Origin: Edaphobacter sp. 12200R-103
GTDB taxonomy: Bacteria; Acidobacteriota; Terriglobia; Terriglobales; Acidobacteriaceae
Reading direction: 5' to 3'
DNA length: 64,000 nt
Assembly: GCF_010093025.1 (NCBI RefSeq)
Contig: NZ_CP048114.1
Span: forward strand, 2,480,001-2,544,000
Made by a program: the position numbers and the translations under genes. The notes beneath the pieces are model-generated. The model did not search any database, was not told the DNA's origin, and saw only the letters and a list, made by a program, of their open reading frames with translations. Positions 22,476 to 40,817 of this stretch are shown in pieces; within the stretch, counting starts at the first letter, position 1, and each line of letters starts with the position of its first letter.

Positions 22476-23272
22476 CTCGTGCAAGGCGGCTTTCTCGACG
22501 AGCATGGCAAGAGCGACACCAAACTCTCCCTTCGCCGGACGCGATTATCGGCGACGTGAGAAAGGTCCGCCAGCAGATTCAGTCCTCCGCCTTCCCCAAC
22601 CTGCCGCTCTACTTCACCGAGTGGAGCACGAGCTACACGCCGCGCGACTCCGTACACACCTCTTACATCAGTGCGCCTTATATCCTTACCAAGCTCAAGG
22701 AATCGCAGGGTTTGGCGCAAGGGATGAGCTACTGGACCTACACCGATCTCTTTGAGGAGCCTGGGCCGCCCACAGCGCCTTTTCAAGGTGGCTTTGGGCT
22801 GCTGAACCCCGAAGGCATTCGCAAGCCCGCCTTCTTCGCTTACAAGTACCTCCACGAACTCCAGGGTGAGGCCGTTCCCTGCGATGATCCACACCTGGAT
22901 TGCCACCGGCCATGGCAATGTAGAGGCTCTAATCCGGGACTTCTCCCAGCCTCACCAGAACATCAGTAACAGGTCTTTCTACACTAAGGTGGTTCCAAAC
23001 CACCCTGCTGCTCCGCTGACCGTGCAAGTGAAGCATCTCGTTCCCGGTAAGCTATATCGAGTCAAGATACTCAGGACCGGCTTTCAGCCAACGACGCGTA
23101 CTCCGCTTACCTGGAGATGGGTTCGCCCAAGATCATGAACGCTGCGGCAGTTCGACATCTGAACGCCATCACGCGCGACCGTCCGGAGAAGAACAAGCTT
23201 CTATGAGCCAGCACCGAAGGGCGAATCGAACTCAAGCTCCCGATGCGCTCGAATGACCTCGTTCTTGTTACT
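22470..23272 (+). pseudogene. Relic of a GH39 beta-xylosidase-like enzyme (C-terminal part)
   Basis: Pieces in different frames join into one GH39-type sequence: GGFLDEHGKSDTKLSL, DAIIGDVRKVRQQIQSSAF, LPLYFTEWSTSYTPRDSVH (the nucleophile-like Glu in TEW), MSYWTYTDLFEEPGPP, FGLLNPEGIRKPAFFAYKYL, then after a frameshift near 22885 TWIATGHGNVEALIRDFSQP and LVPGKLYRVKILRTGF, and finally RIELKLPMRSNDLVLVTLS near 23220-23270. At least three frameshifts are needed, and the first half of the catalytic domain is absent. GH39 enzymes release xylose from xylo-oligosaccharides. It abuts the relaxase relic tail to tail-of-origin at 22470, a recombination join. Confidence 0.8.
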
Positions 23273-23301
23273 CTTTCCGCTACATCTCGATCTCCGAGAA
23301 G

Positions 23302-25392
23302 CTACTGAAGAAGCTCCGCATCCAGCGGGGCAAGAACCATGCTTCCCTCAAACCTGCGGCCACTGAGTATGCCGGTTGCGGGATGCGAGAGCGGAATCAT
23401 CTTCTTCTCACCAGTGGTATTTACGTAGAGCGTTCTACCTTCTACAACGCGAGCGTACACACCCTCCGGAGTAGTCGGTCCAGCCTTCACTCCGGCCAGT
23501 GTCTCTGCGTACTTCAGGGCAGGAGCAATCGAGGAGGCGTTTGCCGGGACTGCGACATAGAGTGCCTTCCCGCGGCCAAAGGAGTTGCTTGTAAGGTAGG
23601 GTGAGCGTTCGCGAGTATTCGTAAGAGCAAAGATTATTTTTGCTGTCGATGGCTCCAGCACCTCATAGCGACGTACGGAAAGATCGGTCTGCTTGCCGTT
23701 GATCTCGACTATCAGCGATGGAACCGAGTCGTAGAATGCATTCGTCTTCAGGCCGAAGACGTCGCTCAGGGCGCCGGGGAGTGGAGTGTCGAACCACAGG
23801 CCAGACTCGTTTACCTTGGCGGAGAATGCTGTCATGAGCACCGTCCCACCATTCCGCACGTAGGTTCGCAGGGCGCTTGCGCTGGCCGAGTCCATGACGT
23901 AGTCCGCAGGTACAACCACAAGTTTGTACTGCGAAAGATCGGTATGTCCCGGGTTGATGAAGGCAGTGTCCACGTTCGCGCGGAACAGGGGCTCAAACGC
24001 ACCTTGTACCTGGTCTGTATAGGAGGGTTTGAAGTATTGGAGCGTCGTGTTTGAGGGGCCGTTCGGATGCGAGTCGACGAAGGAGTCGAACGAGTATGCG
24101 ATCGCTACCTCGGGATGGGTATAGCGAGGAAAGCCAAGGGGTGCAAGCCGCTTGAACTCCGCCGCGATCCTGGCGAACTCATCTACCTTCCACGACGGCG
24201 TGTTGTCGTGATCCACCAATCCAAAGAGCGCCTGCTCTTCGCCTCCGCGATGGCTGTTGAAGGTCCACGCGAGGATACCTTGGGTTCCGAGAGCAAGTCC
24301 TAAATACGCGTACATCCGGCTTCGACCGGGAGTTCCGTAGAAGCCGCCGCCACCTGCAGTAAACTCGTTGAACCAGATCGGTGTTGGGAGATCGCCCTTC
24401 GTAAGCAAGGCTCCCATCGCTCCGCTGACAGGATCGCCAGGATAAAATCCTTCTGCCCCGTAAGAGACATAAGATTTGTAGCTGCTGAGGTAATCGAAGC
24501 CGCGACGCGGCGATGTGTCCCAGAGATTTGAGATCGCCGGCAAATCTGGCATGTCGTGCCGCCGTATTGCTTCGAGTTCACTAAGCCGTTCGATCACAAC
24601 ATCAGACCAGAAGCGGTGGAGATCGAGGAAGCGCTCGGACGGTCCCGGGCCCTCGGCGAGCGGTAGATCAACTTCGTCGAAGCTATCCAGATGACGCGAC
24701 CATCGCTGCGTCGCCCATGCCCGATTCAAAGCGTTCAGGTTCCCATACTTCTCCTTCAACCATTCGATAAAGCGCAACCGATCTGCGGGAGAGTAGGAGA
24801 GATAGCCGTTGCCGATCTCATTGTCGTAACCGACGGCGATGATTGCGGGGTTATGCGCATAACGCTTCATCATCGTGTCGGCGAGCAGGTTTACCTCGCG
24901 GACATAGTCTGGATCGCTGATGTCATCCATGTACCGCTCGGCTGGCGGCAACCGCGTCCCATTCTGCGCGATGATGTCCACTCCAGGGTAGCGGTGATGC
25001 AGCCAGATAGGGGCAGGCGAACCCGGAATATCCAGGATCACTCGAATGCCATTCTTCTGCATCTGGTCCAGAATGCGGTCAAACCACTCGAAGGTGAACT
25101 TGCCCTGTGCCGGCTCAAACGCATCCCAGGAGAGATCACCCATGCGTACGATGTTGAAGCCGGCACGGTGCATGATGGCGATATCCTGTTCGATTTCAGC
25201 GGGCGAACGGTCTACCGGCTGGTAGCAAGTTCCCACAAAGAGTTGCCCGGGCCCCGGCCAGTTCGGCTTCGGGGTTTGAGCCGAGAGCGGCACGGCCTGA
25301 GATCGCAGCGGTGTAACAGTCAGCGTGCCGAAGGCTGTGAGCAGCGAGGCATAGAGCAGAGCTGAGAGCTGGAACCGACAGCAGCGTGACAA
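23302..25392 (-). CDS. Exported GH42 beta-galactosidase
   Basis: 696 residues with a signal peptide (cleavage near LRSQAVP). The TIM barrel starts QLFVGTCYQPVDRSPAEIEQ and IMHRAGFNIVRMGDLSWDAF. The acid/base Glu is in GYDNEIGNG (near 190) and the nucleophile Glu in WFNEFTAGGGG (near 343), both at GH42 spacing. A trimerisation-like domain (VVVPADYVMDSASASAL, GGTVLMTAFSAKVNE) and a small C-terminal beta domain follow. It removes terminal beta-galactose from oligosaccharides in the periplasm. It lies 49 bp downstream of the GH35 gene, so they are one operon. In this island galactose side chains of xyloglucan are the likely substrate; arabinogalactan is an alternative. Confidence 0.9.
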   Translation of the reverse strand: MSRCCRFQLSALLYASLLTAFGTLTVTPLRSQAVPLSAQTPKPNWPGPGQLFVGTCYQPVDRSPAEIEQDIAIMHRAGFNIVRMGDLSWDAFEPAQGKFTFEWFDRILDQMQKNGIRVILDIPGSPAPIWLHHRYPGVDIIAQNGTRLPPAERYMDDISDPDYVREVNLLADTMMKRYAHNPAIIAVGYDNEIGNGYLSYSPADRLRFIEWLKEKYGNLNALNRAWATQRWSRHLDSFDEVDLPLAEGPGPSERFLDLHRFWSDVVIERLSELEAIRRHDMPDLPAISNLWDTSPRRGFDYLSSYKSYVSYGAEGFYPGDPVSGAMGALLTKGDLPTPIWFNEFTAGGGGFYGTPGRSRMYAYLGLALGTQGILAWTFNSHRGGEEQALFGLVDHDNTPSWKVDEFARIAAEFKRLAPLGFPRYTHPEVAIAYSFDSFVDSHPNGPSNTTLQYFKPSYTDQVQGAFEPLFRANVDTAFINPGHTDLSQYKLVVVPADYVMDSASASALRTYVRNGGTVLMTAFSAKVNESGLWFDTPLPGALSDVFGLKTNAFYDSVPSLIVEINGKQTDLSVRRYEVLEPSTAKIIFALTNTRERSPYLTSNSFGRGKALYVAVPANASSIAPALKYAETLAGVKAGPTTPEGVYARVVEGRTLYVNTTGEKKMIPLSHPATGILSGRRFEGSMVLAPLDAELLQ

Positions 25393-25441
25393 TGTTTTCT
25401 CCTCCAGGTAAGTTGGGTTGTGGACGGCGTCGGGTCGACAG

Positions 25442-27121
25442 TCAGAACGTTTGCAGGCGCACCCTTAGCCAAATTGCCTCTTTGCCGAAGTTCAGGCCGT
25501 AATCCGTCTGGTCGCCGTTCCAGAGACGCGTGCGTACCCACTGACCGCCCTGATAGCTGCCTTCTTCCACGATGTCCCACATGCGATGGCGGTTGGAAGC
25601 GGTGCCCGTGGGGTTGAAGTCCACCCGGCACTGACGGCCGGTCACAAGGAACTCGTCGGGGCCCAGGCTGACGATCAGCGCCTCTCCCTCCGGTGCTTTA
25701 TTGCCGGGTGCTGCCGTACCCATTCCGAATGCGGGCAACCCGAAGGAAACAGTAGATTGCCAGTGAGCAGGCTTTCCGGCGCTTCCCGGCAGTTTCACCT
25801 CAGCGGTGTGATGGGCTGGATCCTCCGCTACGCCCCGGACGCGGTCGTCGCGCAGCCAGGTAGCAAGCTCCCGCTGCAGGGGACCTGCCACGGCATAGTT
25901 CCAGGCGAATGGCGCAAGCGTCTGTTCATCGAGCCGCTTCGCCCCGAGTGGAAAGCTGGAGTAGCCCGTTGCATCCATCCCAAATGGAGAGAAACCGAAG
26001 GCTCCGTGGCCTAGAGCCGAGCTAAAGTAGCGTGCGTAGTCAGCGCGGTTGCCCATCTCTGGGATGAACAATGCGTTCCAGGAGAAGGCGTACTGATCGA
26101 GAACCGCAGTGTACTTTGCGTAGTCAGGCAGGTAGATATCAGGCGCCAGCGCATCGAGCGAGGGCGCCGTAGCATGCCACAAGGCAAGCACGTCATAGGT
26201 AGGGCCACCGCTTTCATAGGTCAGCGGAGCGCTCGGCTGTAGTGGGTCCCGCAGCGCTGCGTTTACATACATCGGCAGCGGGAGCACGGCCTTTCCAGCC
26301 GCCGTAACGGCCTCCACGTAACGCGCGATGGACCACGCGCAGAAAAACTCATCTGCATCGGCTTTGAAGACCTCAGCCCACGTGCCTTTGCTATCGTGCA
26401 TTCCCATGCTGTTGAGCACGGCGGCGGGCACAGGAGCGGCAAAAGCAACGTTCGCTTCCTTTCCGTTATCCCGCATCGAGCCCCAGACGCCGGTCTCGTT
26501 CTCCACCTGAACCATCAGGACAATGTGGTCAGGGTCCGCACTTTTGATGTGTTTCATCAGTGCAGTAAATGCTCGGATGTCAGCCGCGAGTGTCTCTTTA
26601 CCGAACGGCGAGAGCGAAAAGACCGGCTCACCGTCGGGCTTGCGAACGAGCGGAAATCGCTGCGGGTCACTTTTGACCCAATGGGGCGCATAGCCTGGAC
26701 TGCCGTTCTTCCACGTACCAAACCAGAGCAATACGAGATGCAGACGGTGCGCACGAGCGCCGGTAAGGAGGGCATCCACCTGAGAGAAATCGAAATGCCC
26801 TTCCTCCGGCTCCAGTGTCTCCCAATACACCGGGGCCTCCACCGTATTCGCACCAAGCTCTGCCATAGTGGTCCAAACGGCAGGCAGCGTCGACGGCCAG
26901 GCCGACGAGTTATTTATTTGTGCTCCCAGCATGAGGAAAGGAGTGCCATCCACAATCAGCGCCGGATGACGACCGGTCCTGTCGATGCGCGGAAGCTGAG
27001 TAACTATTTGTTGGGTAAATATTCGCGGAGCGACGGCGAGAAGTATAAAAAGCAATATGCCGAGGCGGCAGCGATGCCTTTTCGGCGCGCCTCCATAATG
27101 CAGCGTCTTTTTCTGTATCAA
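25442..27121 (-). CDS. Exported GH35-type beta-galactosidase (with DUF5597-like C-terminus)
   Basis: 559 residues, hydrophobic signal sequence (ILLFILLAVAPRIFTQ). Features of the GH35 clan: FLMLGAQINNSSAWPSTLPA, LGANTVEAPVYWETLEPEEG, LVLLWFGTWKNG, and the acid/base Glu in MVQVENETGVWGSM (near 206). The likely nucleophile is in FIPEMGN (near 360). The C-terminal 180 residues form a beta domain like that of Caulobacter/Xanthomonas-type GH35 proteins. It cleaves beta-galactosides; related enzymes act on galactosylated xyloglucan. It leads an operon with GH42. A cluster of TCTGTCA sites lies just upstream. Confidence 0.82.
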   Translation of the reverse strand: MIQKKTLHYGGAPKRHRCRLGILLFILLAVAPRIFTQQIVTQLPRIDRTGRHPALIVDGTPFLMLGAQINNSSAWPSTLPAVWTTMAELGANTVEAPVYWETLEPEEGHFDFSQVDALLTGARAHRLHLVLLWFGTWKNGSPGYAPHWVKSDPQRFPLVRKPDGEPVFSLSPFGKETLAADIRAFTALMKHIKSADPDHIVLMVQVENETGVWGSMRDNGKEANVAFAAPVPAAVLNSMGMHDSKGTWAEVFKADADEFFCAWSIARYVEAVTAAGKAVLPLPMYVNAALRDPLQPSAPLTYESGGPTYDVLALWHATAPSLDALAPDIYLPDYAKYTAVLDQYAFSWNALFIPEMGNRADYARYFSSALGHGAFGFSPFGMDATGYSSFPLGAKRLDEQTLAPFAWNYAVAGPLQRELATWLRDDRVRGVAEDPAHHTAEVKLPGSAGKPAHWQSTVSFGLPAFGMGTAAPGNKAPEGEALIVSLGPDEFLVTGRQCRVDFNPTGTASNRHRMWDIVEEGSYQGGQWVRTRLWNGDQTDYGLNFGKEAIWLRVRLQTF

Positions 27122-27156
27122 CGTTAGGTCTATCAGCGACTAACCCTTAGGTGACT

Positions 27157-27219
27157 TCTGTCAGACAGATTCAAATGAATGACAGAGCAACCCTCATGCG
27201 CTTTCATTTATCTGTCAGA
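27157..27219. promoter_or_regulatory. Cluster of TCTGTCA sites upstream of the GH35-GH42 operon
   Basis: TCTGTC-A-GACAGA (27157-27169) is a perfect 13-bp palindrome; TGACAGA occurs at 27180-27186 and TCTGTCAGA at 27211-27219. The three copies lie 36-98 bp upstream of the GH35 start, between it and the convergently placed end of the regulator gene. This is a plausible operator array; the binding protein is unknown. Confidence 0.45.
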
Positions 27220-27333
27220 TGTCACGTTTTTGAATCAAACTGGAGCTACTCTAACATAGCCTTGAACGATCAGTTGGCACGCATACTTGCCCGCAGCGCA
27301 ATGTAAATGTTGCGCGTATCCGGCTTGCTTGGC

Positions 27334-28713
27334 TTACCATTGCCGCGTGGCGACAATCTCCATCGACGAAGGCTTGAAGTCGATGATCTTGATGTGGAGA
27401 ACGGCTTGAAAGTTTCGCTTGAGCCAATCTGGTCCGAGCTGTGCCCGAAGCGATCTCACATAGTCCGGTTTGCATAAGAACTCTGCAGCAGCAAGCGTCC
27501 CGTGCCCTCCAAGTCCCGCCACGGCCACCATGGGTGCGGCATCATCTTTAGCAACCAGCCGCGTAATGATCGCGTAATCGTCGGTATCGTGAAGATCATC
27601 GGAAGCGTGCAGATCCCATCCCTTGTCGGGATGATCACGGTCCTTGATCCAGTTCCGACCACGGCGAACAAAGGGCAGGTTCTTCGTCATGTCTCTGGTG
27701 ATGAGGTTATTCGCACCACCGATCAACACGGCTGAATGCTCCCTCATCTCGCTGAAAGAGATGTCGTTCGGAAAGCGTTCGTCGAAATCCTTGCCGTAGC
27801 GCGTCAGCATGCGAACTATCTCTGTCGTGGCTGCAACGTCCGCCAACGCGACAAAGCTATCGGGCGCTGGGTAGAGACCGGTGGAAGCGAAGCTCTGATC
27901 CGGCTTGAGGGGAGGAAAGAACTCCATGCCCTCCGAATTCTGCTCATCGGCTCCTGTCTTACTCAGGTATTCGTCGATCTCGTGTTCACCCATCCGGTAT
28001 ACCGCGTTGCTGCCTATGGAAATCAAAATCGGCCTGGGATCTGCCAGCATTGGCGCCCAGAACTGTCGAACTGGGTCGCTCACACGATGGACATACCAGA
28101 TACCCGTTAGCCCGACGATCAATAAAGCCGTCGTCAAAAGAGCGGCGAGCCGTCTGGACAGGCGAAATGGGAATGATCTGTGTAACTCCTCAACCCCACT
28201 TTGGGCCGGCACCTCCTCGATGCCTGGCATAGTGCTCAATGATCTCAGAGGAGTGCTCTCCACCGACAAAAGAGAGGCGAGTGGGGACAGAGGAGATACA
28301 TCTTGCTCTGGCGGAGAAGGGGGAGCAGCTACCTCGCTGGGCCAGACAAAAGTGGCTCGATACGAGCCTGACGGAACATCGATCTTGACGTGTGGAGGCT
28401 CGAGAAGGGCCTGATAATACAGCGCTAATCGCTTCCGCAAATCCGCAGCGCGAATTCGAACCACTGGATCGTCGCCGGGCTCATAGTCTGGCCTGCGGCC
28501 GAAGACCTCTTTGCCGATGACGCGTTCGCGCAACAGTCCCGGTTCGCCCGCCAGAGTGTGCTCCACGATATAGCGCAGCAGCTGTTGACACTGGGTTGTC
28601 GAGCGCAGCGGCTGGCTTCGCAGCAACTCTTCCAGAGCTTTCCACACGTCCTGCTGCTGCTCGGCATTCAAAGAATGTTCGGCATCAGGTATTTCGTGAG
28701 GATTGGCCTGCAT
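27334..28713 (-). CDS. Membrane-anchored regulator-like protein of an acidobacterial family
   Basis: About 459 residues. The N-terminal block (QCQQLLRYIVEHTLAGEPGL, then RVIGKEVFGRRPDYEPGDDP, VVRIRAADLRKRLALYY) is a domain found in front of adenylate cyclase, TPR and transcriptional-regulator proteins in Acidobacteriota and alphaproteobacteria. I read it as a regulatory or DNA-binding module. One membrane helix follows (about 190-212), then a 250-residue extracytoplasmic domain (ILISIGSNAVYRMGEHEID, VLIGGANNLITRD). This is the layout of a one-component sensor that detects a periplasmic ligand. It is divergent from the GH31 gene and so is the best local candidate for control of the island. The start is ATG 28713 (TTG 28719 also possible). 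The function is inferred. Confidence 0.55.
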   Translation of the reverse strand: MQANPHEIPDAEHSLNAEQQQDVWKALEELLRSQPLRSTTQCQQLLRYIVEHTLAGEPGLLRERVIGKEVFGRRPDYEPGDDPVVRIRAADLRKRLALYYQALLEPPHVKIDVPSGSYRATFVWPSEVAAPPSPPEQDVSPLSPLASLLSVESTPLRSLSTMPGIEEVPAQSGVEELHRSFPFRLSRRLAALLTTALLIVGLTGIWYVHRVSDPVRQFWAPMLADPRPILISIGSNAVYRMGEHEIDEYLSKTGADEQNSEGMEFFPPLKPDQSFASTGLYPAPDSFVALADVAATTEIVRMLTRYGKDFDERFPNDISFSEMREHSAVLIGGANNLITRDMTKNLPFVRRGRNWIKDRDHPDKGWDLHASDDLHDTDDYAIITRLVAKDDAAPMVAVAGLGGHGTLAAAEFLCKPDYVRSLRAQLGPDWLKRNFQAVLHIKIIDFKPSSMEIVATRQW

Positions 28714-28937
28714 TCGCAATACCGAGGTATGTTACCTCCTTCCGAAGCGCTGGTCAATTCAAAAGAATGAACAACTTAGGCGGGAATACCTGCAAGAGAG
28801 CTGTAGTGAACCTTGTCGGCCCCAGCTTGGTGAGCGTTTAGTCGTTGGGATCAGAAACGACTTCAGACCCATGTTCTGTATGTGACACAGATGCAATCGG
28901 ACATGTGGATTACCGCTTCATCGAAAGGATTGCAATT

Positions 28938-31322
28938 TTGGCTTTCGCTTGCCCCACCCGCAGATTGTTGCCTATCTGCTTCTGCGCAGTACTAGCGACA
29001 ACACTGTTCCCGTCCGTCTCTGCCCAACAAGTGTTCAACCGCGGAGCCGCGACTGTCGTGATCGAGCCATACGCACCCAACATCGTCAGGATCAGCCTGA
29101 GCCTGCGCCACGACGATGCCGTCGCCGCGCCTGGATACGGCATCGTAGCTCGATCCTCAATGATGGGGTGGAAGAGCTCCCATACAGAGAACGCCGACAC
29201 GCTCCGTTCAATTGACTTGCAGGTCAGTGTTGCCTCCTCACCGAAGGCCCATGGTTCGGGGAGCCATGACGGTGGCGAGATCGGTCGTTTCTTCAGCGGC
29301 TCGACCCCTGGAGTCGGCATCCACATCGCCAAAGGCGATGGCACGCATCTGCTGGACCTGCAAGGCTGGCAAATGGCGGTCCCGAATCACAAGGATGGCA
29401 CGGCATGGCTGAACAATGACCGCCGCCCGTCGGACCCACCATTCTTCACCGTGGGAGCTACTTTTTCCGCCGCCCCGGACGAGCATGACTACGGCTTGGG
29501 GCAAAACCAGGAGGGCTATCTGGATCGCCGTGGCCATGTGCTGCGGTGCGCACACGACTACAACGCACCCGGAGGGCAAAGCGTCTGTGTGCCGTTCATG
29601 GTGACGAATCAGGGGTATGCGCTGCTGTGGGACAATCCTTCACGCACCACTGTCAGCCTGGGCTTTAACGGACAGAACACCTTCCAGAGTGAGGTGGGCC
29701 GGCGGGTCAGCTTCTTCATCATCACAGGTAAGAGCTACGATGATTTTTATCGCGGTTACCGTCTGCTGACCGGTGACACACCGATGCTTCCGAAGAGCGC
29801 CTACGGCTTCATCCAAAGCAAACAGCGGTACAGCTCGCAGGCAGAGTTGATGGAGGTGGCGAAGGGATATCGCGATCGGCACCTGCCCATCGATGATCTC
29901 GTCATAGACTGGTTCACTTACACGAAGATGGGCCAGATGGACATGGACCCCGAGGCTTGGCCTGATCCGGTGGGCATGCTTCGAGATCTCCACGCAATGA
30001 ACTATCACGTCATGATCAGCGTGTGGCCGCGCTTCGTGCCAGGAAGCCGTTTCTTCAACACTCTTCAGGCCAAGGGTTGGTTTGAGCACCTTGCCGACGG
30101 CACCCCGACCAACGGGCTGCCATACGACCGTGCCGGCAGCGACATCGACACGACCAATCCCGACGCAGCGAAGTGGTACTGGAACATCATCAAGGAAAAC
30201 TACGTCACAAAAGGCTTCGATGCTTTCTGGGCCGATGAGACTGAGCCCGATCTACCGCCAAACGGTAGCTACTTCAAGATCGGTCCTGGCACCGAATACT
30301 TCAATGTCTATCCTCTGTTTCATACGGCCGCCTTTTATCAAGGCATGCGGCGGGATATGAAGGAGCGTGCATTGGTTCTGGCACGTGATAGCTATCTCGG
30401 CGCACAGCATAACGGCGCCATCTTCTGGAGTTCGGACATCTCGCCCACATGGGATGTGCTGAAGCGGCAGGTGCCTACTGGCATCAACTTCGTCGCTTCT
30501 GGCATGCCCTATTGGTCGACTGACATTGGGGGATGGCAAGCACTTCCGGCGACGCACAAGCCCGAGCATCCCCCATTGCTCGACCCAAGCGACGCTCGAG
30601 ATGTAGTGGGCGGCTACGATGACTATCCCGAACTGTATACACGATGGTTCGAGTACGGTGCCTTTCAGCCCAACTTCCGCACACATGGCACACGCCCACA
30701 CAACGAAGTTTGGAGTTATGGAAAAGAAGCGGAGCCTATTCTCGAGAAGTATCTTCGCCTGCGCTATCAACTTATGCCCTACATCTATTCACTGGGCTGG
30801 GCGGCGCATCAGAGCGGTGCACCATTTATGCGCGGACTTTTCATGGACTTTGGCAACGATCCCAACGCTGCCAATATTCGCGACGAGTATATGTTTGGCC
30901 CGGCGTTCCTGGTGGCACCCATGGTCGAACAGGGCATGACTACACGCAAGGTATATCTGCCGGCCGGCACAGACTGGTACAACTTCTGGACGAATCAACG
31001 TCTGCATGGCGGTCAGACCATCACGGCGCAGGCACCGATCGATACGATTCCACTGTTCGTGCGCGCCGGCTCGATCGTGCCTATAGGCACACCCATCGAG
31101 AGCACCAATCAGAAGCAAACCATCGAGAAGCTACGGGTCTACCCCGGCGCAGACGGCGACTTCACACTTTACCGCGACGACGGACGCACATACGCCTACG
31201 AACGGGGAGACTTTCAGATCACCGAGATCCACTGGAACGAGGCTGAGAAGAAACTGACGCACACCGGAGCATCTGCATGGACGGGATCCGAAGCATCGCT
31301 CGTGGAGATCGTGCACCCATGA
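28938..31322 (+). CDS. Exported GH31 alpha-xylosidase (or alpha-glucosidase)
   Basis: About 794 residues from a TTG start. The frame is open from 28845, but TTG 28938 has AAGGA 8 bp upstream and yields a good signal peptide (RRLLPICFCAVLATTLF, then SVSAQ), so I prefer it. The GH31 domain shows DYGLGQNQEGYLDRRG, LVIDWFTYTKMGQMDMD, nucleophile Asp in DAFWADETEPD (near 431), acid/base Asp in AIFWSSDISPTW (near 499), then YWSTDIGGW and FEYGAFQPNFRTHG. Related subgroups include the alpha-xylosidases of xyloglucan loci. It would release alpha-1,6-xylose from the non-reducing end of xyloglucan oligosaccharides. An alpha-glucosidase role is not excluded. Confidence 0.85.
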   Translation: MAFACPTRRLLPICFCAVLATTLFPSVSAQQVFNRGAATVVIEPYAPNIVRISLSLRHDDAVAAPGYGIVARSSMMGWKSSHTENADTLRSIDLQVSVASSPKAHGSGSHDGGEIGRFFSGSTPGVGIHIAKGDGTHLLDLQGWQMAVPNHKDGTAWLNNDRRPSDPPFFTVGATFSAAPDEHDYGLGQNQEGYLDRRGHVLRCAHDYNAPGGQSVCVPFMVTNQGYALLWDNPSRTTVSLGFNGQNTFQSEVGRRVSFFIITGKSYDDFYRGYRLLTGDTPMLPKSAYGFIQSKQRYSSQAELMEVAKGYRDRHLPIDDLVIDWFTYTKMGQMDMDPEAWPDPVGMLRDLHAMNYHVMISVWPRFVPGSRFFNTLQAKGWFEHLADGTPTNGLPYDRAGSDIDTTNPDAAKWYWNIIKENYVTKGFDAFWADETEPDLPPNGSYFKIGPGTEYFNVYPLFHTAAFYQGMRRDMKERALVLARDSYLGAQHNGAIFWSSDISPTWDVLKRQVPTGINFVASGMPYWSTDIGGWQALPATHKPEHPPLLDPSDARDVVGGYDDYPELYTRWFEYGAFQPNFRTHGTRPHNEVWSYGKEAEPILEKYLRLRYQLMPYIYSLGWAAHQSGAPFMRGLFMDFGNDPNAANIRDEYMFGPAFLVAPMVEQGMTTRKVYLPAGTDWYNFWTNQRLHGGQTITAQAPIDTIPLFVRAGSIVPIGTPIESTNQKQTIEKLRVYPGADGDFTLYRDDGRTYAYERGDFQITEIHWNEAEKKLTHTGASAWTGSEASLVEIVHP

Positions 31323-31457
31323 ACTCCCGCTTCCGCTGCGAGAAACGCGCCTCGCCAACACGCGCGGGATAGGCTTGCCTCTTCATCAGCGCAACTCCTT
31401 GGCCGACTAAGTACTACCCATCACCATCACGATCCACCTATTTGTTGTGAGGACCAC

Positions 31458-34400
31458 ATGACACAGACTTATCCATCGTTTTTCCACCGCAGCCGCATCT
31501 TTGCAGCTGTCATCATCATGGCGATCGTTGCCCTGGGGACCTCAGGTCGCCTCTGCGCTCAAACCACCGCGAGCATCTCCGGTACAGTGGAAGATACAAC
31601 AGGTGCCGTTATTCCCGGTGCACAGGTCACCTTGACGAACACCAACACGGCGGAGGTCCGTACGCTGCAGACCAACGAGGTCGGATACTTTACCTTTGCG
31701 GGTATTGTTCCCGGAACCTACAAGGTGGACATCAGCGCGAAGGGATTCCGGCGCTTCGAAGCACCGAGCATCGCCGTCAATGGAGGTGATTTCCGCTCAC
31801 TGCCAAACCTGAAGCTCGAAACAGGAGGTGCAAGTGAACAGGTGACTGTTTCCACCTACGCCGATGCACTTGCGCCGCAAGACTCCGGGGAACGATCTTC
31901 GCTGCTTACGACAAAGGACATCGAGCGCTTACCGCTGGTAAGCCGCAACGCTAGCGAACTGTTGAAGGTCCTGCCTGGCGTCACTACCACGGCGAACGGC
32001 GCCGGAAACGGTACAAGCTTCGACTTCACCGACACGGGCAGCACCGGTTCGACGGTCGGAGTCGGCCTCAACACGAACGGCGCGCCGTACCGCGGCGGCA
32101 CGGCTTACCTGCTCGACGGCGCCAACATCATCGACCCTGGCTGCTCCTGCTGGTCGATCGCCACAGTCAATCCGGATATGACCCAGGAAGTCAAGGTTCA
32201 GAGCTCCAACTTTGGAGCTGACGCACCCCAGGGACCGGTCGTCATCAACGTGACCAGCCGTGCCGGTGGCGCTAACTATCATGGACAGGTCTACTACTAC
32301 GTACGTAACTCTGCGCTGAACGCGAACACTTACCAGAATAACCAGAACCACCAGCCAAAGCCTTACGCGAGCTATAACTATCCCGGCATCAGCATTGGTG
32401 GCCCGATCCAGATTCCGCATACCAACATTGGTAAGAACCATCAACTGCTCTTTTGGGCTGGCTTCGAAGACTTCCGCCAAACTCTGCCTGCAGCGCAGCC
32501 CGTGACCTCGTTCGTTCCGAGCACGGCGATGCGTAGTGGCAACTTTAGCTTGACAGATCCAGAGAACGCCGCTTTATGCGCCCACAGTACGGGATCCAAT
32601 GATTTCTGCAAACCCTTGACGGGAGGCTTTGCGCCGGACGGTACTCCGCTCTCTGGAACGCAGGTTCCCACGCAATACCTGGACTCCAATGCCCTCGCGT
32701 TGCTTAAGCTCTTCCCGATGGCCAACACGAATCCTTCCGGCAACGCGAGTGGCTACAACTACTACTTCCAGCCCACCAACGTTCACAACGGTTATGTCTA
32801 CCGTGGCCGAGTCGACTATAACCCCAACAGCACGAACAAGGTGTTCGTCAGCTACCAGCATGGTGCGGACTCAGAGACTAACCCCGTTCACATCTATTAC
32901 ACCCCAGGGGATGCTGTGCTCTATCCGGGTGGACCACTGGTCAGCACACAGATCGCGAACGTTCTCGCCGGCAACTTTATTCACGTCTTCAACGCATCCA
33001 CGACAAATGAGATCCGGGTTGCGCGCGGTTGGACCTCGAATCCGTATACGGCTCAGAATCTGGCCGCCATCCAGAAATCTGCTGTTGGTTACACGTACAA
33101 CACGGTCTTCAACTCGGCATCCAATCTTGTCCCTTCGATTAGTGCTGCCGGTGATCGCACGCTGCCGGACATCTCCCAACCGGATTTGTTCGCGCAGGGT
33201 GGCAGCTTTCCTTCCGATAAGAGCTCGCTGACGATCTCCGATGACTTCACAGCGGTCTATCGCACTCATACGTTCAAGGTCGGCGGGTACTTCAACCGTT
33301 CGGGCAATGCCCAGGGCACCTATGGATATCCGAATGGCGACTTCAGCTTCGGAGGCACACCGCTGCCTGATCAGATCACAGGCAAGCAGATCGGCACCAA
33401 TAACCCTCTTGCGAATTACCTGATGGGAATCGCAAGCGGCTTCACCCAGGCCAATGTCAATCCTACGCAGAACCTCTTCTATCACGTCGGTGCGGGCTAC
33501 TTTCTTGACAACTGGAAAACGACATCGCATCTCACACTTAACCTGGGACTTCGAGTTGAGCATATCGGTCGTTGGCAAGATGGCTCGGGCATTGGTATCG
33601 CTGTATGGGAACCCAATCGTTATGAGACCGACCTTTCGGCAAACAAAGCCTATCCTGGCATCTACTGGAAGGCTATCGACGGAACGTTGCCAAACGGCGG
33701 CGCTCCTGTACAGACACTTTTGCTCGAGCCCCGTCTCGGACTCGCCTATGATGTGCATGGCAATGGCAAGACGGTCGTTCGTGGCGGCTGGGCGAGTTAT
33801 CGCTGGAACGATGCCATCAACGGCGCTTCGGGCGCTTTGACGACAGCACAGGGTACACGTACGTTCAACACGAATTCCGGCAATGCCATTACGTTCGCAC
33901 AGATAAGCGCTTTGTCTTCCAATGCGGCTAATTTGGGTTCGCTGGCGTCCAGCGTCACCGCCCTCGATCCGGGCGACGACAAGCTGGGGAACAGCTATGC
34001 CTATAACCTCACGGTTTCACAGCAGTTGCCCGATAACATGCTCCTCGAAGTCGCCTATGTTGGCAATAACACCCAGAACATCTTGCTCGGTGGGCAAAGC
34101 GACTCCGTGGGTGTTGGCGGAGCGCAGCTCATCAACCAAAACAAAATCCCTCTTGGAGGCTTGTTCCAACACGATCCTGTCACCGGCGCGGCTGCTCCCG
34201 CAGATCCCGAGAGTGTTCCCAATATCGTCGATTACTATCCTTACTACAAAGGCTACGGCACCAGTTCGATCTCCGTGCTTTCGCATGGTGGGTACTCCAA
34301 CTACAACGGTGCGCAAGTGAGCTTGGCCAAGCAGAGCGGCCGCATCACCTTCATGGTCAACTACACCTATAGCAAGTCGCTTGGCATTCTGTCTTCGACA

Positions 34401-35063
34401 CTGGATGCCTTCAACATCCACAATAACTATGGCGTACTCTCCATCGATCGTCCACATGTCGTCAATACGTCTTATGCCTTTGACCTGGGGCGTCCGGTAC
34501 ATAATGCACTGCTCGGCGGTTTTGTGAACGGGTGGACCCTATCGGGAATTACACAGTGGCAAGCTGGTGGCAATATGCAGGCTAACGTAAGCCAGAATCT
34601 TGGTTTGACAATCAATAACACTGCGACGGGCCGTCAAATTACCTCGAACACGTACTACGGAACACCGGCGCAAACGATTCTGCCCATTACGACCTGCAAC
34701 CCGAACTCAAATCTCGGTACATATCAACACATCAATTTGAGCTGCATTACTGCGCCGCAGGTTGGGCAGGTGGGGCTTCGTCAATTACCTTATCTTTCGC
34801 TCGCATCCTATTTCGATTCCGATCTTGGTCTTTATAAGACCTTCCACGTTCATGACAGCCAAAATATAGAGTTACGTGGACAGGCTCTCAATTTCCTCAA
34901 TCATCCGTTGCCGGGTTACAGCACCGGCAGCCTGGTGCAACCCGTCTTCAATACCACCGATGATCGAACATTCACACGCGCCAAATCACCCGTCGGCCGT
35001 GGTGTCACCGACACGAAGTTCACCCAACGCACACTTCTGTTAGCCGTCAAGTACGTCTTCTAA
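31458..35063 (+). CDS. TonB-dependent receptor with carboxypeptidase-regulatory-like N-domain
   Basis: 1201 residues. Signal peptide (IIMAIVALGTSGRLCAQT), then an Ig-like carboxypeptidase-regulatory domain (ASISGTVEDTTGAVIPGAQV, ending near 120), a plug domain (LPLVSRNASELLKVLPGVTT, YLLDGANIIDP, GPVVINVTSRAGGANYHGQV) and a long barrel ending in the aromatic strand LLLAVKYVF. This is the Oar/SusC-like type typical of Acidobacteriota. It takes large ligands across the outer membrane using TonB energy. Sitting between GH31 and GH3 genes, it is probably the oligosaccharide transporter of the locus. TGAGGAC precedes the ATG by 6 bp. No SusD-like partner is present, as expected outside Bacteroidota. 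Confidence 0.9.
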   Translation: MTQTYPSFFHRSRIFAAVIIMAIVALGTSGRLCAQTTASISGTVEDTTGAVIPGAQVTLTNTNTAEVRTLQTNEVGYFTFAGIVPGTYKVDISAKGFRRFEAPSIAVNGGDFRSLPNLKLETGGASEQVTVSTYADALAPQDSGERSSLLTTKDIERLPLVSRNASELLKVLPGVTTTANGAGNGTSFDFTDTGSTGSTVGVGLNTNGAPYRGGTAYLLDGANIIDPGCSCWSIATVNPDMTQEVKVQSSNFGADAPQGPVVINVTSRAGGANYHGQVYYYVRNSALNANTYQNNQNHQPKPYASYNYPGISIGGPIQIPHTNIGKNHQLLFWAGFEDFRQTLPAAQPVTSFVPSTAMRSGNFSLTDPENAALCAHSTGSNDFCKPLTGGFAPDGTPLSGTQVPTQYLDSNALALLKLFPMANTNPSGNASGYNYYFQPTNVHNGYVYRGRVDYNPNSTNKVFVSYQHGADSETNPVHIYYTPGDAVLYPGGPLVSTQIANVLAGNFIHVFNASTTNEIRVARGWTSNPYTAQNLAAIQKSAVGYTYNTVFNSASNLVPSISAAGDRTLPDISQPDLFAQGGSFPSDKSSLTISDDFTAVYRTHTFKVGGYFNRSGNAQGTYGYPNGDFSFGGTPLPDQITGKQIGTNNPLANYLMGIASGFTQANVNPTQNLFYHVGAGYFLDNWKTTSHLTLNLGLRVEHIGRWQDGSGIGIAVWEPNRYETDLSANKAYPGIYWKAIDGTLPNGGAPVQTLLLEPRLGLAYDVHGNGKTVVRGGWASYRWNDAINGASGALTTAQGTRTFNTNSGNAITFAQISALSSNAANLGSLASSVTALDPGDDKLGNSYAYNLTVSQQLPDNMLLEVAYVGNNTQNILLGGQSDSVGVGGAQLINQNKIPLGGLFQHDPVTGAAAPADPESVPNIVDYYPYYKGYGTSSISVLSHGGYSNYNGAQVSLAKQSGRITFMVNYTYSKSLGILSSTLDAFNIHNNYGVLSIDRPHVVNTSYAFDLGRPVHNALLGGFVNGWTLSGITQWQAGGNMQANVSQNLGLTINNTATGRQITSNTYYGTPAQTILPITTCNPNSNLGTYQHINLSCITAPQVGQVGLRQLPYLSLASYFDSDLGLYKTFHVHDSQNIELRGQALNFLNHPLPGYSTGSLVQPVFNTTDDRTFTRAKSPVGRGVTDTKFTQRTLLLAVKYVF

Positions 35064-35107
35064 CTCTGCCCCAATTGGCGTGCAGGCTTCTCCCAAGGAG
35101 CCTGCAT

Positions 35108-35347
35108 TTCGCGCATCTGAACTCGAAGGTCGAGCGCCCTTGTCAGGAGGTGAAGGCGTTTCAGCGCATTCACCTCGCAGCGGGGCAAACCCATGCCATC
35201 GAACTTGAAGTGCCCATACCGAGCCTCGCTTACTGGAATACGGCTGCGCGCCGGTTTATCGTGGAGGCGGACCGGATCCAGGTTCGGGTAGGCGGCTCCA
35301 GCGATTCGCTGCCGCTCCAAGCAGACGCGGTTGTCTCCGATCGGTAA
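35108..35347 (+). pseudogene. C-terminal fragment of a GH3 beta-glucosidase
   Basis: The translated segment LNSKVERPCQEVKAFQRIHL, AAGQTHAIELEVPIPSLAYW and FIVEADRIQVRVGGSSDSLP is the fibronectin-III-like C-terminal domain of GH3 enzymes, ending in TAA at 35345-35347. Everything upstream of the domain is missing. It lies directly before an intact GH3 gene whose own C-terminus is similar in plan, so it is the stump of a second or ancestral GH3 copy. It has no start signal and is probably not translated. Confidence 0.75.
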
Positions 35348-35406
35348 CGCTTCACGATGGAAGCACCGGCATTTCGCAAAATAGAGCCTGCAACCCGGAG
35401 GATAGT

Positions 35407-37608
35407 TTGAGATCTCGCTTTTTCTTCACGATGGTCGTCATCAGTGCTGTCTCCATTCCTGCGCAGGAGACATCTGCACCACAGCCCTGGATGAATCCTC
35501 GACTGTCCCCAGATCAGCGGGCCGATCTGGTCGTCCACCAGCTCACACTGCCGGAGAAGATTCAGCTAGTGCACGGAATAGGATGGGGACCCCTGAGGCC
35601 CGGCGACCCGGTTCCTCCTGACAACAATGGAGGTGCCGGTGAGGTGCAGGGCATTCCACGTCTCGGCATCCCCTCCCTGCAACAAGCTGACTCGGCTGTC
35701 GGCGTCAGAATGGCAGCCGCGCAGAGCCGGTATGCCACACTGCTGCCAAGTGTGCTCGGCGCCGCAGCGAGTTGGGATGTCAAGGCGGCGCACCTCTACG
35801 GAGATATCATCGGCCGCGAACTCCGTGCGCAGGGTTACAACCAGTCGATCGGCGGGGGCGTCAATCTGGCTCGCGATCCACGCAATGGCCGTCTCTTTGA
35901 ATACCCCGGTGAAGATCCGTTGCTAGCAGGGGTCACCGTCGGTCACGTCATCCAGGGCATACAGGCAAATAAAGTGATGGCCGACATCAAGCATTATGCG
36001 TTCAACGATCAGGAGACGGGCCGCACAGTCGTTGATGTGCATATATCCAGGAAGTCTGCGCACGAAAGCGACCTCCTCGCCTTCGAGCTGGGTATACGCA
36101 TCGGGCAACCGTCAAGCGTCATGTGCTCCTACAACAAGGTCGAGGGTGACTGGTCCTGCGAAAACAAGTGGCTGCTGAATGACGTGCTCAAGGGCGAGTG
36201 GAAGTTTCCCGGCTTCGTTGTCTCTGACTGGGAGGCCACTCACTCCACGACGAAGGCGGCACTCGCCGGTCTCGATATGGAGATGCCTGGATCACAGTTC
36301 TTCGGTACTCCTCTAGAAGACGCCGTGCGTAACGGCAAGGTACCTCAGGCGCGGTTGGACGACATGGTGCACCGATTATTGCGATCCATGTTTGCCGCCG
36401 GTGTCATTGACGATCCATCCCTTCCGCGAAAGGTTGTCGATCCCTTCCGGGGAAGGGATGACGCACAGCAAATCGAGGAAGAAAGCATCGTTCTGCTCAA
36501 GAACAACCGCGGCGCTCTACCGCTGGTTGCAAATAGATTGCAACGCGTCGTGGTCATCGGCGCCCATGCTGATGTAGGTGTAATCTCGGGGGGCGGCTCC
36601 GCACAAGTCGACGCACCGGGTGGCAACGCAATCTCACCCGATAAGCCTACGAAGTGGGGCGAGGCTGTCTACTTCCCGTCTTCTCCTCTACGTTACATTC
36701 GCGAGCATGCGCCCAACGCTCAAGTCAGCTTCGATGCGGGCACAGACCCAGCCATGGCGGCGCAGGCGGCCAGGGGCGCGGATGCCGTACTCATCTTCGC
36801 CGATCAGTATATGAGCGAAGGCGGAGACGCGCCTACCCTAGCGCTACCGGGGAATCAGAACGCATTGATCGCCGCGGTCGCAAAAGCAAATCCGCACACC
36901 TTGGTGATTCTGGAAACAGGCAATCCCGTGTCAATGCCTTGGATTGATGACGTACAAGGGGTGTTGGAGGCGTGGTATCCGGGGATCGGCGGGGGACAGG
37001 CCATCGCCAACGTACTCTTTGGCTCTGTGGATCCGTCCGGCAAATTGCCAATCACCTTTCCGCGTAGCGAAAAAGATCTACCACATCCCCGGATTTTCGG
37101 CATGACCTACAAAACCCCCGCAAACGGTGGGCTACCTGAGCATTGGGTATCGGAAGAGAAAACCGCTAGCTTCCCGGCCGATTACACCGAGGGTGTTCGC
37201 TTCGGCTACAAATGGTTCGAATCCGAGCAGAAGCAACCCCTTTTTCCGTTTGGATTCGGGCTTAGTTACACGCACTTCACTTATGACGATCTTCAGATTG
37301 ACAGCGACAAAAAGCAGGTTCATTTCCGCGTACGGAACGATGGACAACGGTCCGGGACCGAGGTCGCGCAGGCATATGTACAACTGCCTCCCTCCTCAGG
37401 GGAAAAGTTCATGCGGCTTGCCGGGTGGGGAAGGGTCACACTTGCACCGGGCGCTTCACACCAAGTCACGGTACAACTTGAGCCTCTTGCACTTGCCTCA
37501 TGGAATGAGCCTGCGGAAAAATGGGATTGGACACACGGCGACTACACGGTAAAGGTAGGACGGTCCTCCGCAGACATCGCTTTGAGTGGGCATCTCAGGA
37601 TGCAATGA
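35407..37608 (+). CDS. Exported GH3 beta-glucosidase
   Basis: 733 residues, TTG start with GGAGG 6-10 bp upstream; signal peptide FFFTMVVISAVSIPAQ. N-terminal barrel with GIPSLQQADSAVGVRM, GREL, KHYAFNDQE and the nucleophile Asp in GFVVSDWEATHST (near 274). Then the alpha/beta sandwich (IVLLKNNRGALPL, VVIGAHAD, ADAVLIFADQYMSEGGDAPT) and a fibronectin-III-like C-terminus (SGTEVAQAYVQLPPSSGEKF). It hydrolyses terminal beta-glucose from cello- or xyloglucan oligosaccharides in the periplasm. Subfamily substrates vary (some are beta-xylosidases), so the exact sugar is inferred from context. GH29 follows 60 bp downstream. Confidence 0.9.
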   Translation: MRSRFFFTMVVISAVSIPAQETSAPQPWMNPRLSPDQRADLVVHQLTLPEKIQLVHGIGWGPLRPGDPVPPDNNGGAGEVQGIPRLGIPSLQQADSAVGVRMAAAQSRYATLLPSVLGAAASWDVKAAHLYGDIIGRELRAQGYNQSIGGGVNLARDPRNGRLFEYPGEDPLLAGVTVGHVIQGIQANKVMADIKHYAFNDQETGRTVVDVHISRKSAHESDLLAFELGIRIGQPSSVMCSYNKVEGDWSCENKWLLNDVLKGEWKFPGFVVSDWEATHSTTKAALAGLDMEMPGSQFFGTPLEDAVRNGKVPQARLDDMVHRLLRSMFAAGVIDDPSLPRKVVDPFRGRDDAQQIEEESIVLLKNNRGALPLVANRLQRVVVIGAHADVGVISGGGSAQVDAPGGNAISPDKPTKWGEAVYFPSSPLRYIREHAPNAQVSFDAGTDPAMAAQAARGADAVLIFADQYMSEGGDAPTLALPGNQNALIAAVAKANPHTLVILETGNPVSMPWIDDVQGVLEAWYPGIGGGQAIANVLFGSVDPSGKLPITFPRSEKDLPHPRIFGMTYKTPANGGLPEHWVSEEKTASFPADYTEGVRFGYKWFESEQKQPLFPFGFGLSYTHFTYDDLQIDSDKKQVHFRVRNDGQRSGTEVAQAYVQLPPSSGEKFMRLAGWGRVTLAPGASHQVTVQLEPLALASWNEPAEKWDWTHGDYTVKVGRSSADIALSGHLRMQ

Positions 37609-37668
37609 AGTTCCAGACCAAGTCTTCACCTCGTGCAACATGCGCAGCACCTCTCGAAGGAGATATCA

Positions 37669-39342
37669 ATGAGTTCAGGCTATCTGTCCCGTCGATCGAT
37701 GGTAAAGCAGAGCTGTCTTGCCGCGGCTGCTACGGCGTCGCCGCTCGCCGCACTTCTCCGCGCACAGACTGGGATCGCTAGTGGCAACCAGATCATGAGC
37801 GGTAAATACCTCCCGACATGGGAGTCGCTGAAGCAATGGCAAATGCCTGAGTGGTTTCGGGATGCAAAGTTCGGCATATGGGCTCATTGGAGCGCGCAAT
37901 GTGTACCCGAACAGGGCGATTGGTACGCTCGTAACATGTACATCCAGGGGAGCCCGCAATACGAGTATCACTGCAGAACCTACGGGCACCCCACGAAGGT
38001 CGGATTCAAGGAAATTGATCACCTATGGAAGGCCGAACGATGGCAGCCCGAACAGTTGATGGATCTATATATCAAGACGGGAGCAAAGTACTTTTATGCC
38101 CTCGGCTGTCATCACGACAATCTTGACTGCTTCGATTCCACCTATCACCAGTGGAACACTACCCGGGTCGGACCTGGGAAAGATATCGTCGGGACCTGGG
38201 AGAAGCTGGCTCGTCAGCGTGGTTTGCGCTTTGGCATCTCCAATCACTCTTCGCATGCGTGGCATTGGTTCCAGCCGGCATACGGCTACGATCCGGAAGG
38301 TGCCTTCGCGGGTCGGCGCTACGATGCTTACACACTGACCAAGGGTGACGGCCGCGGTACATGGTGGGAAGGACTCGACCCACAGGAGCTCTACACCGGC
38401 CGTAACATCGTCATGCCGGATGGTATCCAGACCGTGGCGAACGCAAATGCGTGGCACGCCAGCGGCGATGGCAAGTGGCACGAGGAGCCGCCGCCTGCGA
38501 ACCCTGCCTTCACCCGGAACTGGTTTCTGCGCTGCAAGGAGATGATCGACAAATACAAGCCGGACATGTTGTATTTCGATGACACAGAGCTACCACTCGG
38601 CCAGGCGGGCCTCGACATTGTTGCGCACTACTACAACGCAAATATGAGTTGGCACAACGGACACGAAGAGGCCGTCGTGGCAGCAAAGGAGTACACGCCT
38701 GCGCACATGGGTGCCACCATGCTGGACATCGAACGAGGTCGAGCCCAGGGAATTCTGGAAGCCCCGTGGCAAACCGATACTTGTATCGGCGATTGGCACT
38801 ACCGCCGCTCCCTGTTTGAGGAGCACGCTTACAAACGTCCGAGCACGGTCGCGCAGATGCTGATCGACATCGTTAGTAAGAATGGCAACCTGATGCTCAA
38901 CATTCCCGTGAGAGGAGATGGCTCCATCGATGAGGATGAGCACGAATTCCTACGCGATTTCGGTGCCTGGATGGCTGTTCATGGTGAGGCCATCTACGGG
39001 ACGCGACCGTTTACGATCTATGGCGAAGGCCCTCCTGACGTGATAGGTTCACATAATTTCAACGAACTGAGATCAAGGCCATACACCGCAGAAGACATCC
39101 GGTTTACCTGTAAGGGAGATCAGCTTTATGCCTTCGCACTCGGCTGGCCATCGGATGGGGTGTTGCGTGTAAAGAGTCTCCACAAAGGCAACTCGGTTTT
39201 GCCTCAACCTATTGGCGCCATTGAGATGCTTGGATATAAGGGGCTGCTGAACTTTAAGCAGGACGCAGCATCGCTCGAAATCCGATTTCCTGCACGCAAC
39301 CCGGAGGCCCTCGACGTTTATGCGTTGAAGATCCTTAGGTGA
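37669..39342 (+). CDS. Exported GH29 alpha-L-fucosidase
   Basis: About 557 residues. ATG 37669 follows GAAGGAGATATCA (Shine-Dalgarno 8-11 bp away); the frame extends to 37633 but that start has no site. The N-terminus YLSRRSMVKQSCLAAAATA is a twin-arginine-like signal. The catalytic barrel has WFRDAKFGIWAHWSAQCVPE, the His-rich HHDNLDCFDS, ISNHSSHAWHW and the nucleophile Asp in MLYFDDTELP (near 303). It then has SKNGNLMLNIPVRGDG and a C-terminal beta domain. It releases alpha-L-fucose, here most plausibly the terminal fucose on galactose of xyloglucan side chains. It is the last gene of the GH31-TonB receptor-GH3-GH29 run. Confidence 0.9.
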   Translation: MSSGYLSRRSMVKQSCLAAAATASPLAALLRAQTGIASGNQIMSGKYLPTWESLKQWQMPEWFRDAKFGIWAHWSAQCVPEQGDWYARNMYIQGSPQYEYHCRTYGHPTKVGFKEIDHLWKAERWQPEQLMDLYIKTGAKYFYALGCHHDNLDCFDSTYHQWNTTRVGPGKDIVGTWEKLARQRGLRFGISNHSSHAWHWFQPAYGYDPEGAFAGRRYDAYTLTKGDGRGTWWEGLDPQELYTGRNIVMPDGIQTVANANAWHASGDGKWHEEPPPANPAFTRNWFLRCKEMIDKYKPDMLYFDDTELPLGQAGLDIVAHYYNANMSWHNGHEEAVVAAKEYTPAHMGATMLDIERGRAQGILEAPWQTDTCIGDWHYRRSLFEEHAYKRPSTVAQMLIDIVSKNGNLMLNIPVRGDGSIDEDEHEFLRDFGAWMAVHGEAIYGTRPFTIYGEGPPDVIGSHNFNELRSRPYTAEDIRFTCKGDQLYAFALGWPSDGVLRVKSLHKGNSVLPQPIGAIEMLGYKGLLNFKQDAASLEIRFPARNPEALDVYALKILR

Positions 39343-39487
39343 AGTACCCAAAATATAAGCTTAAACGCCAAGCCCCTTCACTTACTCCGAAGGCTTTCTC
39401 AATGCGGAGCGCCATATCCCCGGAAAAGATCAGCCTTGCCGTTGAGCAGGCTGGACAACCTACGTGCAATGCCGGCTCGTGCGCGAG

Positions 39488-39528
39488 GATTTGCCGCTAA
39501 GAACGCCCCGACGGGGCAGCGGCAAATC
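39488..39528. repeat. Strong inverted repeat beside the integrase end
   Basis: GATTTGCCGCT (39488-39498) and AGCGGCAAATC (39518-39528) are perfect 11-bp arms, with an inner GCCCC-GAC-GGGGC hairpin at 39505-39517. It lies between the convergent ends of the fucosidase and the integrase relic. It may be a terminator without T-run, or part of a recombination site. The rest of 39343-39487 shows no gene. Confidence 0.6.
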
Positions 39529-39534
39529 AGAACC

Positions 39535-39561
39535 AATATCTAAAGAGATAAATTAGATATT
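39535..39561. repeat. AT-rich perfect inverted repeat at the integrase 3' end
   Basis: AATATCTAA (39535-39543), 9-base spacer, TTAGATATT (39553-39561). It overlaps the integrase stop codon. This position and inverted 9-bp half-sites are what a tyrosine-recombinase core site looks like, but no second copy at the other island edge was found by eye. Confidence 0.45.
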
Positions 39562-40640: not shown

Positions 40641-40641
40641 A

Positions 40642-40768: not shown

Positions 40769-40817
40769 GTATCCGGGTATTTTGCGCGACGGCGATGGCA
40801 TTTAAGACAGAGACACC

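Follow-up and report, generated by a model that had tools for sequence, protein, structure and literature searches.

A mosaic glycosidase island in Edaphobacter with a candidate transmembrane regulator and conserved paired promoter sites

Acidobacteria are abundant in soils. The window analysed here is a stretch of 64,000 nucleotides from Edaphobacter sp. 12200R-103, whose genome is a single contig with an estimated completeness of 96%. It contains an island of about 19.7 kb (about 21.1-40.8 kb of the window) that encodes five glycosidases of different glycoside hydrolase (GH) families, a TonB-dependent receptor, and a transmembrane regulator. The original prediction for this DNA had proposed a complete exo-enzyme set for fucogalacto-xyloglucan on a smaller interval. 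The gene set is real and the polymer plausible, but completeness was overstated, and the prediction passed over what is the greater novelty, namely that the island is a moved mosaic and that its regulator is accompanied by paired promoter sites. In our estimation there is about an even chance that it represents a mobile island for the utilisation of xyloglucan oligosaccharides under a transmembrane one-component regulator. The island and its genes are:

21122..40824, no strand: the island, inserted with an RNase E/G-family gene on one side and rodA on the other (flanks 112 bp apart in KBS 146)
23302..25392, minus strand: GH42 (Pfam, 210 bits, plus trimerisation domain)
25442..27121, minus strand: GH35 with DUF5597, XacGalD/CjBgl35A-like (Pfam, NCBIfam, PDB matches)
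27334..28719, minus strand: transmembrane regulator without Pfam family (profile scans, database relatives, model)
28845..31322, plus strand: PA14-less, alpha-xylosidase-like GH31 (Pfam, 290 bits)
31458..35063, plus strand: TonB-dependent receptor (Pfam: OMP_b-brl_4, CarboxypepD_reg, Plug)
35407..37608, plus strand: beta-glucosidase-like GH3 (Pfam)
37633..39342, plus strand: GH29 (Pfam, 278 bits)

The insertion is evident from a comparison with Acidobacteriaceae bacterium KBS 146 (L001, identical to G327), which is placed in the genus of the window. The RNase E/G-side and rodA-side flanks are 112 bp apart in KBS 146 versus 19.7 kb in the window, and KBS 146 holds the gene set at another place, at about 964.2-984.3 kb of its contig. 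Between the two genomes, identity is 79% for the core gene rodA and 82% for PBP2. In steps of 500 bp, the island shows 78.6-93.4% identity outside two near-identical patches, of which one comprises the end of GH42 and part of GH35 (25.0-26.5 kb, 97.4-99.8%) and the other GH3, GH29, and an integrase remnant (35.5-40.5 kb, 97.2-100%). The island is thus a mosaic of such patches on a background close to core-gene identity. We rejected a recent transfer of the island as a whole, because only the patches are near-identical while much of the rest diverges from KBS 146 about like the core genes. The GH3-GH29 stretch has partial matches in 102 of the 398 family genomes searched and is matched as a whole only by the genome itself and by KBS 146 (97%). 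At 35106..35109 of the window (a junction, no strand), between the receptor and GH3, KBS 146 has about 1.97 kb more including a further GH3. A GH3 belonging to the same cluster also occupies this position in L005, so that loss of this gene in the line of the window appears likelier than gain, and the set is in this respect not complete. Taken as it stands, the island shows that such a locus has been moved and recombined between relatives.

As predicted, all genes of the set have uninterrupted frames, and the catalytic-acid motifs were found in GH42, GH35, GH31, GH3, and GH29. For GH3, GH29, and GH42 the meaning of these motifs is our assumption. The genes form two arms that diverge from a single region of 125 bp (28720-28844, start codons being provisional). 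The left arm on the minus strand consists of the regulator followed by GH35 (gap of 212 bp) and GH42 (49 bp), and the right arm on the plus strand of GH31, the TonB receptor, GH3, and GH29 with gaps of 135, 343, and 24 bp. For GH31 and GH35 the meaning of the motifs was taken from the available portions of PMC8245568 and PMC4285296, respectively. The N-terminal hydrophobic stretches of the proteins would fit export. A SusD partner of the receptor, said to be absent by the original prediction, did not match among the island proteins scanned with Pfam, which sets the locus apart from polysaccharide utilisation loci of the Bacteroidota type.

Xyloglucan is suggested mainly by GH35 and GH31. The GH35 is of the XacGalD/CjBgl35A type and, judged by its sequence, closest to the xyloglucan-type galactosidases. 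Pfam assigns PF01301 (33.5 bits) and DUF5597 (112.5 bits), NCBIfam gives GH35_fam with 481 bits, slightly below the cut-off of 500, and the best PDB matches are 8fa4 (562 bits), 7kmn (561 bits), which we take to be XacGalD, 3u7v, and the Bgl35A entries (497 bits). For GH31 the top five PDB matches are all alpha-xylosidases, and a grouping with starch-type enzymes, the outcome that the prediction had named as contrary to it, was not seen by best matches. The GH31 match 6dru is presumably Aspergillus AxlA. This agrees with reference 36 in PMC8245568. GH31 keeps the XacXyl31 positions W453, the C5-selecting tryptophan of the -1 subsite, and D564 and D640, the catalytic acids, and within the GH31 cluster of the window the W453 position is occupied by W in 71 and by F in 6 of 77 rows. 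This tryptophan is not decisive, because a second GH31 of the same genome has it as well. That GH31 lies at 256-277 kb (L099, L100) in what looks like a pectin locus, where its neighbours are GH106, GH28, an MGH1-like hydrolase, and proteins of the GH141_M type. In a GH31 tree of 33 rows, which was midpoint-rooted and has long branches and no alpha-glucosidase references, the clade of the window comprises 20 rows including members from Dyella, Asticcacaulis, Lysobacterales, and Cellvibrionaceae, and it is separated from XacXyl31, CjXyl31A, and BoGH31A with a support of 100/100. GH3 is nearest to beta-glucosidases, although below every NCBIfam cut-off, and GH42 matches solved beta-galactosidases with up to 187 bits.

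Related loci support part of the combination. Among 80 GH31 loci fetched by similarity, several of them on short contigs, and searched with tblastn at E 1e-20, the regulator is present in 11, GH3 (at least 57% identity) in nine, and GH35 (at least 39%) in six. The fullest related cores, as far as the sequences tell, are L159, where one locus unites the regulator (51%), the receptor (67%), GH31 (71%), and two GH3 genes (69% and 48%), and L157 with receptor, regulator, GH35 (62%), and GH3 (74%). GH74-like propeller genes are found near a GH31 of this type in 4/80 loci (L064, L071, L078, L079), and in L078 such a gene, GH35, GH3, and GH31 are consecutive.

Several findings weigh against a locus for xyloglucan. 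The GH31 lacks the PA14 domain, as seen with Pfam and as a gap in the alignment, and has a glycine at the position of the stacking tryptophan W524 of XacXyl31; PA14 and a residue of the W524 type are described for xyloglucan-specific GH31 enzymes in the part of PMC8245568 available. GH29 occurs in a single one of the 80 loci, that of KBS 146, and its best solved relatives are an alpha-L-fucosidase (279.5 bits) and an exo-alpha-L-galactosidase (279.2 bits), so that it is at best a candidate xyloglucan fucosidase. The role of GH42 is likewise tentative; GH42 is found in seven loci but with more than 26% identity only in KBS 146 and in none of the other 79. L153 carries GH29 (81%), GH2, GH42 (70%), and an intact GH39 together, with neither GH31 nor the regulator within the fetched 20 kb. 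Finally, the xylose isomerase TIGR02630, which represents this one xylose route, is absent from the genome.

It could be that the island is a composite, in which GH42, GH39, and GH29, as a set directed at a different fucosylated glycan of galactan type, were joined to a core of regulator, GH31, receptor, and GH3, and that the seven genes do not serve one substrate. The gene content of L153, the restriction of GH42 and GH29 beside a GH31 of this type to KBS 146, and the patchy identity to KBS 146 would all fit such an origin, but the genes run in the same direction with short gaps between GH35 and GH42 (49 bp) and between GH3 and GH29 (24 bp), and they are jointly present in KBS 146 at another place. 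We regard a composite as possible, though less probable than a locus for xyloglucan oligosaccharides. Still more doubtful is the use of polymeric xyloglucan with an endo-enzyme of the organism's own that belongs to an unrecognised or untested family. The original prediction held that the backbone cutter must be elsewhere, but searches of the genome for GH74-like, GH12, and GH9 proteins and inspection of the strongest of three GH5 matches did not reveal an endo-xyloglucanase. GH12 and GH9 gave no match while their controls did, and the nearest relatives of the strongest GH5 are 9ku5, CelC, and exo-1,3-glucanases. A Rhodanobacter query, which we take to be GH74-like from a motif and BNR/Vps10 matches (with CBM2 in one relative) and which the libraries leave unnamed, aligned in the own genome over no more than 60 residues (35% identity, E 3e-4), and a GH74-like endo-enzyme was rejected accordingly. 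PF15902 gave 13 match rows at four places (276, 572-574, 1862-1863, and 4110 kb), of which the protein at 572 kb had no match among GH74 structures and was rejected as a hidden GH74. In favour of an own endo-enzyme are the completeness estimate of 96%, the search for GH44, which is uninformative because it did not match even in controls, the two other GH5 matches and the BNR/Vps10 frame at 276 kb extending across two of the stretches fetched, which are unclassified, and GH16, GH45, and further families lying outside the searches. Since no endo-xyloglucanase was found, the island is read as an oligosaccharide scavenger and not as a complete degrader.

The regulator did not match any Pfam or NCBIfam family. 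The membrane anchor that had been predicted is borne out by the most hydrophobic stretch (residues 192-210), which lies within a modelled helix (185-213), and according to the model a single membrane helix connects two domains. Database relatives number 505 among 8000 scored candidates, and the 120 listed are unnamed or "hypothetical", two being also labelled "Adenylate cyclase". At E 1e-60 the regulator is found in 12 of 150 family genomes including the own one and in none of three other genomes of the same genus in this sample; L159 stems from a genome of the genus outside the sample and has it. In all 11 loci of the other genomes of the sample that have it, the regulator is divergent to GH31 in five (L128-L131, L133) and to the receptor in six (L132, L134-L138). 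The positions in L131 and L137 were taken from the genome search, as the selection of open reading frames (ORFs) had dropped both, and a 190-aa ORF between the regulator and its neighbour in L133 was taken as spurious. GH31 lies within the stretch in ten of these loci, and L132 has GH29 and a major facilitator superfamily transporter instead. These ten GH31s are only 31-73% identical to that of the window and have W (six), A (three), or Y (one) at the W453 position; the regulator family therefore does not go with a single sugar. Three distant paralogues in the own genome (L139, L140, L141) are also located near TonB receptors, two of them with GH26 or GH92.

The region between the two arms contains two sites with the common core GGT-N4-TAC, 76 bp apart from start to start:

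28726..28736, minus strand (regulator strand): site B, GGTAACATACC, over the -10 box of the regulator
28801..28815, minus strand (regulator strand): site A, CAAGGTTCACTACAG, a conserved pattern
28729..28757, minus strand: promoter-like TTGACC-17-TAACAT for the regulator (sequence reading)

Of 24 regulator regions, 23 are distinct, as L129 is the same place as L010. The core is present in 18 of the 24 regions and twice in 14 of them. Without the duplicate it is present in 17 of the 23 promoters and present twice in 13, compared to 4.3% (one site) and 0.29% (two sites) of control windows of 340 bases, the tested regions having 300-510. By our grouping the 13 promoters with two sites represent about eight lineages (window and L001; L010/L011/L015/L128; L033 and L051; L004; L037; L135; L137; L159). 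The spacing is mostly 76-78 bp, with 58 in L033/L051, 68 in L137, and 87 in L135. The regions outside the pattern-finding set are L004, L045, L129, L131, L133, and L137, which leaves five without the duplicate L129, and three of these (L004, L133, L137) have an exact site A. Against operators of the regulator stand six of the 23 promoters without any core site (L045, L131, L134, L136, L138, L157), and the site patterns are post hoc because they were derived from reading the regulator upstream regions. Scoring by GGTAnnnTACC alone is weaker, with at most 6/8 in seven of the 15 loci of the Fisher sum; the distant paralogues L139 and L140 score 6/8. Inverted repeats of at least seven bases occur in only some of 18 upstream regions.

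Alternatively, the sites could be nothing more than promoter sequence recognised by an acidobacterial sigma factor. Site B overlies a -10 of sigma-70 type, and 11 of 13 distinct loci with an exact site B (L132 included, L137 left out) have a TTGAC(A/C/T) -35 at 17-18 bp, the exceptions being L132 and L135. Moreover, GGTAnnnTACC occurs 19 times in 112 stretches (2.17 Mb, some overlapping) but 23 times in one mononucleotide shuffle, so site B is unusual by its place, with 15 of the 19 at regulator promoters, and not by its number. On the other hand, the -10 hexamer does not include the GG and CC, site A has this core as well, and the long A pattern has 16 occurrences (14 at regulator promoters, the others in L052 and L140) as against five in the shuffle. 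We consider promoter sequence a possible though less probable alternative to operators of the regulator. L052 (Edaphobacter lichenicola X5P2, 15488-15564) has both patterns at a distance of 62 bp, and no regulator was found in the stretch fetched. They precede an ORF of 698 aa that looks like GH28 type and an ORF that we assume to be GH27-like; this may be an orphan target or chance.

In a scavenging island, the TonB receptor would, as its family suggests, bring xyloglucan oligosaccharides set free by other organisms into the periplasm. There, GH29 would remove fucose and GH35, perhaps together with GH42, galactose, and GH31 and GH3 would release xylose and glucose in alternation from the non-reducing end as in the models for Cellvibrio and Xanthomonas; the sequence GH29, GH35/GH42, GH31, GH3 given in the original prediction is tentative. 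The outer domain of the regulator might sense the ligand and the inner domain act on the two GGT-N4-TAC sites, of which one covers the -10 box for the regulator-GH35-GH42 arm and the other precedes the GH31-receptor-GH3-GH29 arm. The single 125-bp region would thereby set both arms. More generally, we give roughly equal odds for and against the view that TonB-receptor/glycosidase loci of the Acidobacteriaceae have a class of transmembrane one-component regulators of their own, which is neither a hybrid two-component system nor a pair of extracytoplasmic function sigma and anti-sigma factors and which binds GGT-N4-TAC sites in pairs, in most cases at a distance of 76-78 bp, over two promoters that diverge. 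In this view, islands with an integrase pass the module of regulator, receptor, and glycosidase from one relative to another.

According to the accessible parts of PMC4285296, the xyloglucan locus of Cellvibrio japonicus contains xyl31A, bgl35A, a TonB-dependent receptor, and afc95A, and the xyloglucan-sensing proteins are stated as unknown. The island resembles it in combining GH31, a GH35 of the same type, a fucosidase, and a TonB receptor and in lacking an endo-xyloglucanase within the locus, and differs in having GH29 for GH95, a PA14-less GH31, GH42, GH3, and a linked regulator, and in sitting on an insertion. The Xanthomonas locus, with GH74, GH31, GH35, GH95, an esterase, and two TonB-dependent transporters in the portion of PMC8245568 at hand, likewise shares GH31, GH35, and the receptor; GH74, GH95, the esterase, and the PA14 domain are missing in the island and GH3 is present. 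Acidobacteriae are above average in transmembrane transcription regulators per genome (PMC10269533, available in part). Like the ToxR/CadC kind treated there, the regulator would be one polypeptide with an inner DNA-binding-like domain, a single membrane helix, and an outer domain, but it has no Pfam match and is linked to TonB receptors and glycosidases; neither "TonB" nor "glycoside" occurs in the main text of that paper as available. Judged by titles and abstract openings, no paper on the control of acidobacterial polysaccharide loci was among the matches listed. With a candidate sensor and a predicted operator, the question of control becomes a one-protein experiment.

The ends of the island contain remnants:

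21674..22578, minus strand: broken helicase/relaxase-like remnant in two pieces (Pfam, one piece)
22547..22879, plus strand: decayed GH39 remnant (Glyco_hydro_39, 79 bits, profile 248-356 of 472)
39543..40645, minus strand: broken tyrosine integrase remnant (aligned piecewise with an intact integrase of 473 aa from the own genome)

In the first of these the piece at 22240-22578 matches AAA_30 (78 bits), the piece at 21674-22111 gave no match in the Pfam scan, and the label relaxase is our assumption. GH39 is broken in KBS 146 as well. Pfam recognises one piece of the integrase remnant weakly and the other not at all, and the intact 473-aa kin of this remnant is located elsewhere in the genome. 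The tyrosine integrase of another genus (G136, L133:11967-13394), 1.6 kb from a regulator-GH31 locus, is 92.6% identical in protein sequence to this intact one (L098:10833-12254). Granulicella sp. L46 encodes an AAA_30/UvrD_C_2 protein resembling the left-end remnant (L021:3-1142), near GH42, GH3, and a GH31 of this type. The segment at 40642-40768 of the window is a dispersed repeat (about 127 bp), which matches the own genome dozens of times and KBS 146 many times.

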